Part shown: positions 45,500 to 49,326 of the stretch, piece after piece
Layout of the letters: every line of letters starts with the position of its first letter
How positions within the stretch are numbered: the stretch's first letter is position 1
Origin: Algorimicrobium algoritergicola
Lineage (GTDB): Bacteria > Bacteroidota > Bacteroidia > Flavobacteriales > Flavobacteriaceae
Assembly: GCF_008086165.1 (NCBI RefSeq)
Contig: NZ_VSKL01000007.1
Location: 62,001 to 126,000, forward strand
Reading direction: 5' to 3'
DNA: 64,000 nucleotides
Notes under the pieces: model-generated
The model's database searches: none
Told to the model about the DNA's origin: nothing
Seen by the model: the letters and a program-made list of their open reading frames with translations, nothing else
Translations under genes and position numbers: made by a program

Positions 45500-46204
45500 T
45501 TATACTAATACTTGAAATATTATACCTGTAATGATGGCAATACCGAAGCTAATGAGCGTGCCAATTAAAATGTATTCCGTGAGTTTTCGGTGTTTACTTT
45601 CTTTTAAATCACCGAATCTAAAAACGGATTTTGCTGTAATTAAGAATCCTACAGCTTCCCAATGATTCATAATAATAAAGATGAATACCAGAAGACGCTC
45701 AAGAATCCCAATATACTTGCCAGCATCCTTTAATGATTCGTTGCCTTTGGTGAGTTTCTCTATATTCCATTTACTAAAAATAGCCTGCATGATTATTGAA
45801 ACAGGTTTTGTTAAAAATAGCAAACAGGTAAGTAGAAGTAGAGCAGATTCGGCAGGTATTTCAGATGTTGTAAACGATGTGTTTGTGTAGATGAAATAAG
45901 CAGCAAAAATACTGATGATGTGTAACAGCTGATCAATAAAAAACCATTGACGTTTGGTTTTCTTATTTTGAAAAAACAGTTTGATAGCATCTATAATAAA
46001 ATGCAATAATGTAATAATTAGTAGTAATGGCCAATAGGATACATCCCAAACTAGAATAAATAACAACGCCATGTGAATGGCAACATGTAAGTATAGTTTA
46101 GGCGATTTTAGTTTTCTCTTTTCTTTACTTTTTACCCAAGACTTTGGTTGAAGAATAAAATCTCCAATCAAATGTGCTAAAATAAGTTTTACTAATAAAA
46201 TCAT
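45500..46204 (-). CDS. DUF3307 membrane protein
   Basis: A 234-residue integral membrane protein with about six helices. The N-terminal LILAHLIGDFILQPKSWVK and the LHFIIDAIKLFF segment are typical of DUF3307. It starts at the ATG at 46204, one base after the satD-like stop, so the two genes are translationally coupled; the same SatD-DUF3307 pair is a recurring cassette in this group. Function unknown. Confidence 0.85.
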   Translation of the reverse strand: MILLVKLILAHLIGDFILQPKSWVKSKEKRKLKSPKLYLHVAIHMALLFILVWDVSYWPLLLIITLLHFIIDAIKLFFQNKKTKRQWFFIDQLLHIISIFAAYFIYTNTSFTTSEIPAESALLLLTCLLFLTKPVSIIMQAIFSKWNIEKLTKGNESLKDAGKYIGILERLLVFIFIIMNHWEAVGFLITAKSVFRFGDLKESKHRKLTEYILIGTLISFGIAIITGIIFQVLV

Positions 46205-46205
46205 C

Positions 46206-46814
46206 CTACAAGTTACTTATTTTAATGATATACAAGTTGTTCAGTTCTAATATTTCTTCAAGATTAGCGCGTTTCATCCGTTTGCTTACGGCTTCTTGAT
46301 TAATACCAATTAGTTGTGCAATTTCACTTTGAATCTTATGGGGATTTTCAATTTGTATTTTTATAATTTCGGCAGAATTTACGGTCCAATTATCCATGCT
46401 AATCATAGCTAATTTAAAGTATAAATTCATATCTCTATTTAAAATAGTATCTGATGTTTTCAGCTTTAAATTAATCTTGTCCTTTTTTAGGTTTTCTAAT
46501 GTTTCCCCTGAAAATTGAAAGGCTTCTCCATTTGATTCGGTTACGGTTTCACCTTGATATGTTTTAGTACCAATTCCTATTGCTATGCGTACATCTAAGC
46601 CCTTTATCATTTTAACACAAGCTTTGATATAAACAGCATGTAAAAAGCTGTTTTGAGGGGTTTTTATTTCTATTTGAAAGCTATCACCTCTGTATATTTC
46701 CCACAAACGCGTGTCAGACTCTAAAAAGGTTAGCGCATCCTTGAGTTGCGGCAACCAAATAGCTGGTTTCACGTTTTTAGAATTTATAATATCGCCTGTA
46801 ATAACACTAGTCAT
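46206..46814 (-). CDS. SatD-family protein with C-terminal HTH
   Basis: A 202-residue soluble protein. The N-terminal part, MTSVITGDIINSKNV, and the following YRGDSFQIEI and VRIAIGIGTK segments match the SatD family. About residues 155-190 form a helix-turn-helix (KIQSEIAQLIGINQEAVSKR), so it likely binds DNA. It heads the cassette with DUF3307. Two identical palindromes upstream (46863-46882 and 46891-46910) are good candidates for its own operators. In streptococci SatD belongs to a secretion and acid-tolerance operon; the role here is unknown. Confidence 0.8.
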   Translation of the reverse strand: MTSVITGDIINSKNVKPAIWLPQLKDALTFLESDTRLWEIYRGDSFQIEIKTPQNSFLHAVYIKACVKMIKGLDVRIAIGIGTKTYQGETVTESNGEAFQFSGETLENLKKDKINLKLKTSDTILNRDMNLYFKLAMISMDNWTVNSAEIIKIQIENPHKIQSEIAQLIGINQEAVSKRMKRANLEEILELNNLYIIKISNL

Positions 46815-46862
46815 AAATGTTGATGCTTTAATTATATGCCTTTATATATGAATAATTCAAAA

Positions 46863-46910
46863 TATTCCACAATTAAGGAATAAATTAATATATTCCGTTT
46901 AAAAGGAATA
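46863..46910. promoter_or_regulatory. Twin palindromic operators upstream of satD
   Basis: Two copies of TATTCC, 8 bp, GGAATA: 46863-46882 and 46891-46910. Their starts are exactly 28 bp apart. They lie 49 to 96 bp upstream of the satD start, the normal place for regulator binding. Half-site, spacer length and phasing are all repeated, so chance is unlikely. A weaker AATATTT/AAATATC dyad follows at about 46922-46940. Confidence 0.65.
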
Positions 46911-46997
46911 ATCAAATATCGAATATTTTATTGAAATATCCAAATGGTTGGTAATCAAAACAAAGTTAAAAAGGGTGTTTGGGTTATATAACCAAGA

Positions 46998-47543
46998 TTA
47001 TAGATCAATTTTAATATTGTAATCGGCTAATTCTTTCAAATAATTTTCCAAAACAAAATCTGTACTATTAAACTCAATAAGCCTATTTTTCTTGGTTTTA
47101 TTACGTTCAATAGCTTTTAAAAATCGCTTTACTTCTTCTAAAGATGATAAAATGAGTCCAGGTACTGGTGACGATTTTCCGTTATCATCTTTGGCAACCA
47201 TGGTAAAATAGGATGAATTACAGTGTTTAACATGTCCTGTTCTAATATTTTCTGCTTCCACACGAATTCCAACAACCATAGATGTTTTTCCTACGTAATT
47301 GATGGAAGATTTCATGGTAACAAGCTCGCCAATTTCCACCGGTTCTAAAAAATTTACGGTATCCACAGAAGCGGTCACACAGTAATTTTCAGAATGTTTG
47401 GAAGCGCAAGCATACGCAATTTGATCCATAAGGCTCAACATATAGCCACCATGAATTTTACCGCCAAAATTAGAGTGTGACGGTTGCATTAATTCAGCAA
47501 TGCTAATACGCGAGCATTCTACAGTTTTATAAGATTTTTTCAT
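46998..47543 (-). CDS. Acyl-CoA thioesterase, hotdog fold
   Basis: A 181-residue hotdog-fold thioesterase of the YciA/BFIT type. The conserved N-terminal segment SNFGGKIHGGYMLSLMDQIA holds the catalytic loop, with the acidic residue in LMDQIA, followed by ASVDTVNFLEPVEIGELV. It hydrolyses acyl-CoA to free acid and CoA, in the cytoplasm. A C-terminal tail of about 45 residues is lysine-rich. It lies 1 bp behind the 122-residue membrane gene, and both lie behind rmuC, so one transcript is likely. Confidence 0.9.
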   Translation of the reverse strand: MKKSYKTVECSRISIAELMQPSHSNFGGKIHGGYMLSLMDQIAYACASKHSENYCVTASVDTVNFLEPVEIGELVTMKSSINYVGKTSMVVGIRVEAENIRTGHVKHCNSSYFTMVAKDDNGKSSPVPGLILSSLEEVKRFLKAIERNKTKKNRLIEFNSTDFVLENYLKELADYNIKIDL

Positions 47544-47928: not shown

Positions 47929-49326
47929 TTATTCGTCATCATCAGATGACAGTTTTGCTCTTTTTAAAATAGCTTCAGGTAATGCTTTTTTAGCTTTGGC
48001 ACCTAGTTTTTTAATTTTTTCAACACTTGTAATAAGGTTTCCTTTTCCTTCAACTAACTTATTCATGGCTGATGAATAGTCTTTTTTAGCATCATCAATT
48101 TTCTTTCCTACGCCTGTTAGGTCTTTTACTAAACCTTCAAATTTATCATATAAAGCACCAGCTTGCCTGGCAATTTCAATGGCATTTTGTTGTTGTTTTT
48201 CGTTATTCCACATACTATCTACCGTTCGTAAAGTAGCTAAAAGGGTAGAAGGTGTAACAATAACTATGTTTTTCTCGAATGCCTTATTGTAAATGGAGTT
48301 GTCTGCATTAATGGCGACCGCAAAAGCAGGTTCTATAGGAATAAAAAGTAATACAAAATCAGGACTTTCTATATCGTATAAATCTTCATATTTCTTTTCA
48401 GAAAGTTGGTCTACGTGTTTTCTAATAGAATTTATATGTGCTTTAAGATAAATTTCACGTTCATCATCCTCTGCGTTTACATAGCGTTCGTAATCTGTTA
48501 ATGACACCTTACTGTCAATAATCATTTTTTTATTATCCGGTAAATGCAATACAATATCCGGAAGCACTCTGGTGCCATCTTCTCTCGTAAAGTTCTGTTG
48601 TACAAAATACTCTCTATCTTTTTCTAGACCAGATTTTTCTAGAACACGTTCTAAAACTAATTCGCCCCAATTTCCTTGCATTTTACTATCACCTTTTAAA
48701 GCTCTAGTTAGGTTTGTAGCTTCTTTGGTCATTTGCTGATTTAAATCTTTTAAACCCAACAATTGTTCTTTTAAAGCCGAATGCATGCTGATACTTTCCT
48801 TTTGTGTATCGTCTACTTTTTTCTCGAAAATTTGAATTTTTTCTTGAAGCGGGTTTAAAATATTTTTTATGTTCTCTTTATTCTGAAGGGTGAATTTCTC
48901 TGTTTTTTCGTCTAAAATTTTAGTAGCTAATAGCTCAAAATCCTTACGTAATTGTTCTTGGCGAAGTTCTAATTCTTCATCGCGTTTTAAAAGTTGTTGT
49001 TCCAAGTTTTCGTATTCTGAATTGCGCCGTGCTAATTCTGAATTTAGAAGTTCTTTTTCTTTTCTAATGTCATCTCTATCAATTTCAATTTTGGATAGGA
49101 GTTCTTTTAAATCAGTTGTTTGTTGATTAAAATAGGATTGTTGTTTTTGAGTTTCTTCATCAAAAGACACCTTCAAGCTAGCGAGTTGTTGCTGCAAATT
49201 AGTGTTTCGCTCCTCAAGTGTACTTGTGTCACTTTTGTTTTTTAGTTTGGAAATAGTCAGACCAATATAGGCGCCAATAGCACCCGAAAAAATAATAGCA
49301 ATAATGAGAATAAGGCTGTCAATCAT
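47929..49326 (-). CDS. rmuC: DNA recombination protein RmuC
   Basis: A 465-residue protein. An N-terminal membrane helix at about 3-22 is followed by a long coiled coil to about 210 (NTNLQQQLASLKVSFDEE and repeats). The RmuC nuclease-like domain is C-terminal, with GNWGELVLERVLEKSGLEK, LPDIVLHLPDNKKMIIDSKV and the later FVLLFIPIEPAFAVA. The D and K of the DSK motif are kept. RmuC limits inversions at short repeats, probably as a nuclease. It is the first gene of the rmuC-membrane-thioesterase run. Confidence 0.93.
   Translation of the reverse strand: MIDSLILIIAIIFSGAIGAYIGLTISKLKNKSDTSTLEERNTNLQQQLASLKVSFDEETQKQQSYFNQQTTDLKELLSKIEIDRDDIRKEKELLNSELARRNSEYENLEQQLLKRDEELELRQEQLRKDFELLATKILDEKTEKFTLQNKENIKNILNPLQEKIQIFEKKVDDTQKESISMHSALKEQLLGLKDLNQQMTKEATNLTRALKGDSKMQGNWGELVLERVLEKSGLEKDREYFVQQNFTREDGTRVLPDIVLHLPDNKKMIIDSKVSLTDYERYVNAEDDEREIYLKAHINSIRKHVDQLSEKKYEDLYDIESPDFVLLFIPIEPAFAVAINADNSIYNKAFEKNIVIVTPSTLLATLRTVDSMWNNEKQQQNAIEIARQAGALYDKFEGLVKDLTGVGKKIDDAKKDYSSAMNKLVEGKGNLITSVEKIKKLGAKAKKALPEAILKRAKLSSDDDE

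Follow-up and report, generated by a model that had tools for sequence, protein, structure and literature searches.

Autoregulators that act on tandem operators are exemplified by NrdR, BldC and phage repressors. The array upstream of the satD-DUF3307 gene pair of Algorimicrobium algoritergicola resembles the operators of these proteins in presenting repeated sites of fixed spacing over what is predicted to be the gene's own promoter, yet it differs from them in that its half-sites alternate in orientation every 14 bp, that distant relatives retain its period of 28 or 29 bp with altered letters, and that the regulator has a cyclase/palm-like domain. The name of the SatD family derives from the sat genes of Streptococcus mutans. 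An acid-tolerance label is repeated for a Fusobacterium member in one paper (PMC10326533), a DUF3307 ORF is listed for a jumbo phage in another (PMC8504454), and a third deals with DUF2652, a different cyclase-like family (PMC4886424). Among the open-licence PMC passages and listings covered, no study of SatD binding or of DUF3307 function was found, nor any description of an operator array for the SatD family.

The window (the whole stretch of 64,000 nucleotides that was analysed) carries a satD-family gene followed by a DUF3307 gene (Table 1). An earlier note, made from the letters of the window, had claimed that TATTCC-N8-GGAATA occurs twice upstream of this pair, with equal spacer, a 28-bp offset and the copies in phase. 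Both palindromes are indeed present and exact, with the spacer and offset as described; 'in phase' is right for the sequence register but not for the helical face, as at 10.5 bp per turn an offset of 28 bp amounts to about 2.67 turns. A third, decayed palindrome, absent from the earlier note, shares the 28-bp register, and at the close homologue L004 the same place is likewise occupied by a copy with two mismatches. Read along the satD strand, the array consists of TATTCCTTTTAAACGGAATA, 8 bp, TATTCCTTAATTGTGGAATA, 8 bp and then the decayed TATTCATATATAAAGGCATA. The gap within each palindrome equals the gap between palindromes (8 bp), likewise absent from the earlier note, thus a 6-bp half-site recurs at each 14-bp step, with its orientation reversed from one to the next. 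Since each such step turns by about 120 degrees, it follows from the geometry that a loaded array would wrap the helix rather than occupy one face.

Table 1. Features of the satD-DUF3307 locus in the window (positions counted from the first letter of the window)
Feature	Position	Strand	Remarks
DUF3307 gene	45500..46204	-	PF11750, E 5.2e-30; 1 bp after satD; predicted all-helical, membrane-type
satD-family gene	46206..46814	-	202 aa; ATG at 46814
Predicted recognition helix of SatD HTH, residues 173-182	46269..46298	-	K178 codon 46281-46283; Q173 codon 46296-46298
Palm/cyclase-like domain and trailing helices, residues 1-143	46386..46814	-	D8 codon 46791-46793; D44 codon 46683-46685
Palindrome 3, TATTCA-N8-GGCATA	46835..46854	-	degenerate, 2 mismatches; 28 bp from palindrome 2
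Palindrome 2, TATTCC-N8-GGAATA	46863..46882	-	exact; 28 bp from palindrome 1; 49-68 bp upstream of satD ATG
Palindrome 1, TATTCC-N8-GGAATA	46891..46910	-	exact; gene-distal; 77-96 bp upstream of satD ATG
Possible -7 element GATATTTG	46913..46920	-	by eye; 1 mismatch to TAnnTTTG
Possible -33 element TTTG	46941..46944	-	by eye, weak; 20 bp from -7 candidate

The frequency of the motif was determined in the window, in the host genome and in the family. With two mismatches allowed, the single palindrome was found six times in the window against 4.07 expected, a count reached by 19 of 100 shuffles and thus not significant, and over the 3.54 Mb of the host genome it gave 279 hits where its control gave 211, a slight excess. 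Because the single palindrome at two mismatches is uninformative at both scales, the signal resides in the exact tandem array. The exact single palindrome occurs three times in the host genome (0 for the reversed-pattern control); its third copy was rejected as a regulon member because it forms part of a longer, terminator-like hairpin, which has a tRNA on one side and on the other a gene that by eye resembles tuf. The tandem pattern with up to three mismatches was found in the host genome at the satD locus only, with none in the controls, so this pattern and threshold reveal no wider SatD regulon there. Among 199 genomes of the Flavobacteriaceae, the tandem pattern is present in 18, of which 16 carry it at satD; the remaining two have it beside a broken satD-like fragment (G088) and elsewhere with three mismatches (G120). 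A chance or frequent motif was therefore rejected for the tandem array, and the genome-wide search proposed in the earlier note places it almost exclusively at satD. Broken satD-like fragments were observed at G088:C50:17561-17816 and at L112 (G051), and the G088 fragment still has a recognisable operator array next to it.

To define the homologous loci, SatD matches were collected from 111 of the 199 family genomes and loci from 110 of these were analysed; three loci with weak matches and no tblastn hit and one broken locus were set aside, leaving 106. The array finder assumed TAT at the outer ends and steps of 28 or 29 bp, with the same rules applied to shuffled sequences. By this measure, 102 of the 106 same-family upstream regions beat the best of 53 dinucleotide-shuffled controls, with steps of 28 bp (186 cases) or 29 bp (41 cases) and two to four copies counted per locus; among the named genomes, 77 of 80 loci pass the threshold. 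A letter-free scan over periods of 20-40 bp likewise returned 28 or 29 as the best period in 102 of 106 upstream regions, compared with 13 of 106 shuffles and 7 of 106 control regions located 680-900 bp upstream; the best shuffle had a raw score of 32, which only 62 of the 106 surpassed, and a score of 34 was seen in one control region. The expectation that the motif would recur upstream of satD in other Flavobacteriaceae was thus borne out for the architecture but not for the literal TATTCC, which is mainly found in close relatives: the majority of distant relatives carry other half-sites, which track a residue of the SatD recognition helix (residue 178; see below).

The ORFs upstream of satD fall into 45 clusters over 183 loci, hence the array accompanies satD rather than the adjoining gene, and a site belonging to the upstream gene was rejected on this ground. 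The largest of these clusters (54 of the 183 loci) consists of an ORF resembling RmuC by eye; the neighbours of satD in the window are 4HBT thioesterase and RmuC genes, at 46998-47543 and 47929-49326. Two loci, L005 and L007, have one 28-bp register with two sub-arrays, TATTCC distal and TATCAC or TATCAT proximal to the gene, which possibly represent an evolutionary intermediate. At L114 and L116, TATTCC arrays begin similarly far upstream (-173 and -201).

The -7 consensus of Bacteroidota promoters is TAnnTTTG. This box was found in 58 of the 102 upstream regions, against 15 expected, and of the 61 boxes that lie in or near an array, 48 share a single register position. With the box at one place inside the array, bound SatD would occlude the polymerase. 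Repression is proposed because the array overlaps promoter-like elements, and on this sequence evidence SatD probably represses its own operon. A reading in which SatD binds the array and activates the operon, or both activates and represses it (for example, as a nucleotide-dependent activator), would find some encouragement in the start of the array, which depending on the locus lies some 51 to 201 bp ahead of the start codon, and in the sub-arrays of different half-site at L005 and L007, which could serve two modes; we regard it as unlikely, as the recurrent register position of the -7-like box favours occlusion of the polymerase and thereby repression.

Relatives from beyond the family were examined for the same architecture. 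In a set of 34 loci from outside the family, which leaves out six further genomes with weak matches, 18 pass the array threshold and 16 do not, two of the latter being ties. Ten of the 16 non-passing loci are GC-rich, and all ten keep DUF3307. The array finder returned no array at L243, L248 or the GC-rich L249, L251-L256 and L258, and no convincing array at L259, L260 and L267. The eight loci L249, L251-L256 and L258 (GC content of 45-60%) come from one other Bacteroidota family and retain satD-DUF3307, with the array not found; their recognition-helix region differs, for example GDSL versus SKRM in the window.

SatD relatives were also found on plasmids or second replicons (eight records), comprising Vibrio lentus, two Salinivibrio, two Pseudoalteromonas, Enterobacter kobei, Pseudomonas fragi and a plasmid of the Bacteroidota species Segatella copri. 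DUF3307 is annotated next to satD in six of these records, and the other two have no annotation there. Three IMG/VR contigs (L193, L194 and L195) carry SatD relatives with DUF3307 next to them in each case and with 29-bp arrays of other half-sites. A match to an XkdF-like phage protease lies near the L193 copy, and so does a SusD gene, which makes the viral origin of this contig uncertain; the SatD protein of L194 had no match in phage genome records at E≤0.01. Over these replicon and IMG/VR loci, the best palindrome array is clearly above four shuffles each in 7 of 11, with a period of 28 or 29, where the two Pseudoalteromonas are near copies and the Enterobacter array consists of two palindromes only. 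Arrays are weak in the two Salinivibrio and in Segatella, and none was found in Pseudomonas fragi. The half-sites of the seven arrays are quite different (for example, TTAGCC, GTAACC and TGGCCG). Arrays with strongly divergent half-sites are thus present in other Bacteroidota, on some replicons of Gammaproteobacteria and in viral-database contigs. As periods of 28 or 29 are kept while half-sites differ, the spacing of the array appears to predate its letters.

The letters themselves were compared with the SatD proteins in two sets of loci, 102 from the same family (set 1) and 77 from named genomes (set 2), which share some species and so are not fully independent. In the predicted recognition helix, a nearly invariant Ser is followed immediately by residue 178, and among the 202 columns it is residue 178 that shares most normalised mutual information with half-site position 4, with position 5 and with position 6 (102 loci). 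Lys or Arg at residue 178 is accompanied by C at half-site position 6, and not at position 4, in 22 of 22 loci of set 1 (TATTCC, TATGCC, TATTAC and TATAAC) and in 35 of 38 of set 2. Glu is accompanied by C at position 4 in all loci of both sets (19 of 19, mostly TATCGT, TATCTG and TATCGG; 15 of 15), and Gln by G or T at position 6 (37 of 39, mostly TATTAG and TATAAG; 5 of 5). Gly, Met, Asn, Ser or Thr go with C at position 4 (TATCAC and alike) in 18 of 19 loci of set 2, while small residues are mixed in set 1. The exceptions to the code are L074 and L072 (Gln), L123, L178 and L179 (Lys/Arg) and L119 (Thr), and L007 (G178) carries a TATTCC sub-array plus a TATCAT sub-array. Loci with an array below the threshold were left out of these counts (L009, L039, L092 and L097 from set 1; L170, L173 and L174 from set 2), among which L009, with R178 and TATCAC-like arms, would count against the code.

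The association was also evaluated out of clade, where each half-site class was predicted solely from loci <45% identical over the N-terminal 143 residues. Residue 178 gave the right class in 141 of 153 cases, with 26 more loci having no usable partner, whereas the majority class was right in 32 and the nearest remaining relative in 41; scored over all 179 loci, residue 178 reached 141 and the next-best column 98. On the tree of the N-terminal domain, gains of K/R178 coincide with gains of K-type half-sites on five branches. A parsimony co-change test on this tree, which is noisy, ranked column 178 first for position 5, second for position 4 and fifth for position 6, and placed it outside the top eight for the combined triplet, and unrelated columns such as N146 and S3 score high in this test; a supported-branch pair test, with two to three pairs among the rows listed, has no power. 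Residue 173 is Gln in 178 of 179 loci. At L169 and L229, which have R173 and are probably one lineage, TGTTAC replaces TATTAC, and L092 (A173) has the half-site ATTCGA; no array was found at L174, the third R173 locus. From these R173 and A173 loci, residue 173 may be a second position of the code.

Half-sites that track residue 178 are what autoregulation by SatD itself predicts. The suggestion of the earlier note that SatD, having its own HTH, may autoregulate thus gains support from the conservation of the array, its confinement to satD and its covariation with residue 178: judged from sequence, an operator lies at the gene's own promoter and its specificity is linked to the gene's own HTH, as looked for in an autoregulator. 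Very probably, then, the HTH of SatD binds the array to regulate its own operon. The alternative that some other transcription factor binds the array, with SatD merely as its target, has nothing specific in its favour and is highly improbable, as half-site identity follows a SatD residue across clades, only one array-bearing genome has the tandem array away from satD, and satD-DUF3307 pairs on several plasmids and viral-database contigs likewise have arrays of 28 or 29 bp in front of them. That the repeats act as RNA or DNA hairpins (a terminator or attenuator) instead of operators is scarcely credible: the TATTCC and GGAATA arms are complementary and the genome's third exact copy belongs to a hairpin of terminator type, but the 8-bp cores differ among copies and are mostly non-palindromic, and neither the 28/29-bp period nor the residue-178 code is expected for hairpins.

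Binding by SatD being the preferred reading, the identity of the protein was examined. The label 'SatD' used in the earlier note stands for the family, as PF16264 matches 86 of the 106 homologues at E≤1 (best match 3.3e-13), although the window protein itself has no PF16264 match at that threshold; a search of its genome gave no PF16264 match either, and the 14 controls of that search likewise gave none. The AlphaFold2 model of SatD has a mean pLDDT of 97.1, and the predicted fold of residues 1 to about 130 is common to GGDEF, class III cyclases, the Cas10 palm and GTP cyclohydrolase III, from all of which SatD differs in carrying an HTH. Comparison of the model with VIA gave Z of 9.8 to 2qv6 (3.1 Å, 111 aligned), 9.7 to 4zvg, 9.2 to 1y10 and 9.2 to 3ung, at 9-18% identity between SatD and these four structures, and the best Foldseek match is 4wp9 (E 8.1e-4). 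The fold shared with class III cyclases (Z about 9) is shared equally with GGDEF and Cas10 and so is not specific to any of them.

Asp is found without exception (179 of 179 array-bearing homologues) at two positions, D8, with which strand 1 ends, and D44, within an RGDSFQ hairpin; they presumably correspond to the positions where cyclase/GGDEF/Cas10-type enzymes hold metals, and the secondary structure of the model places these presumed metal-binding aspartates at strand 1 and at the strand 2-3 hairpin. The transition-state Asn/Arg of class III cyclases would correspond to columns 100 and 104 of SatD, by an uncertain by-eye alignment, and these columns vary. The GG[DE]EF motif of diguanylate cyclases is absent from SatD, which has RGDSFQ in its place, and the window protein has neither a cyclase nor a GGDEF Pfam match at E≤1. 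Searched by sequence against solved structures, the single SatD protein had no match up to E 10; a SatD profile matched 31 distinct sequences up to E 10, mostly by short HTH-region matches to DNA-binding proteins (best E 0.017), and included the cyclase Ma1120 in four weak matches (E 1.1 to 1.7). NCBIfam gave sub-threshold matches only for SatD and none for DUF3307, and PADLOC, which covers known anti-phage defence systems (2023 library), gave no family for either protein up to E 10 in a search whose HMMER filters drop weak matches. Because the cyclase/palm fold and the invariant D8 and D44 are retained, though the Asn/Arg pair is seemingly not kept, the N-terminal domain of SatD is likely, on the model, to bind a nucleotide; whether SatD goes on to sense or synthesize a nucleotide is evenly balanced.

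The partner gene accompanies satD closely: a DUF3307 ORF is next to satD in 184 of 186 loci and overlaps it by 4 bp in 58 of the 80 named loci. The PF11750 match of the window protein scores 104.5 bits against a gathering cut-off of 23 and covers residues 3-114, beyond which the DUF3307 proteins here have an extra conserved C-terminal half; all 57 aligned homologues match PF11750 at E≤1. The PHROG family phrog_2470, annotated as 'membrane protein' in the moron category, also matches the protein (E 4e-15). Eight His/Asp residues are invariant (H11, D15, H40, H44, H68, D72, D91 and H95), which together with the conserved C-terminal half suggest a metal site in the membrane. The structure model is of moderate quality (pLDDT 87.5, pTM 0.56), with no solved-structure match at E≤0.001 and a VIA Z of at most 6.0.

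Combining these observations, the palindromes are very probably the operator of an autoregulated two-gene operon, satD-DUF3307, with SatD as a one-component regulator whose C-terminal HTH would read 6-bp half-sites that are set 14 bp apart and flip orientation at each step. Several dimers of SatD, three in the case of the window, would load side by side over the promoter, perhaps cooperatively, and the dimers coating the array would repress their own operon. A nucleotide-type signal that the N-terminal cyclase/palm-like domain either binds or produces might then release SatD, and this release would raise DUF3307 in the membrane. In its widest and quite tentative form, which we consider doubtful as a whole, satD-DUF3307 would be an undescribed nucleotide-signal cassette carried on chromosomes, plasmids and phage-like contigs, where SatD is both a cyclase/polymerase-like enzyme (or sensor) and a DNA-coating autorepressor, and where the nucleotide product or ligand frees the array of 14-bp periodicity and either turns on the membrane protein DUF3307, which bears the invariant His/Asp cluster, or gates it directly; the outcome might be defence against envelope stress or superinfection, a role that is speculative.

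For the SatD family, known mainly by a borrowed name, these results provide a testable regulator, with an operator defined to the base and a prediction of the residue that reads it. The natural variants (Lys, Glu, Gln or small residues at 178; Arg or Ala at 173) are a ready-made set for specificity swaps. A predicted nucleotide-cyclase/palm domain is here connected with DNA binding as well as with a conserved partner in the membrane, which occurs on chromosomes, on plasmids and in viral-database contigs; as the palm domain is linked to DNA binding, a putative ligand can be screened for via release of SatD from the array. Finally, with the spacing retained while the letters are rewritten, the locus offers a compact system for the co-evolution of a regulator and its operator.
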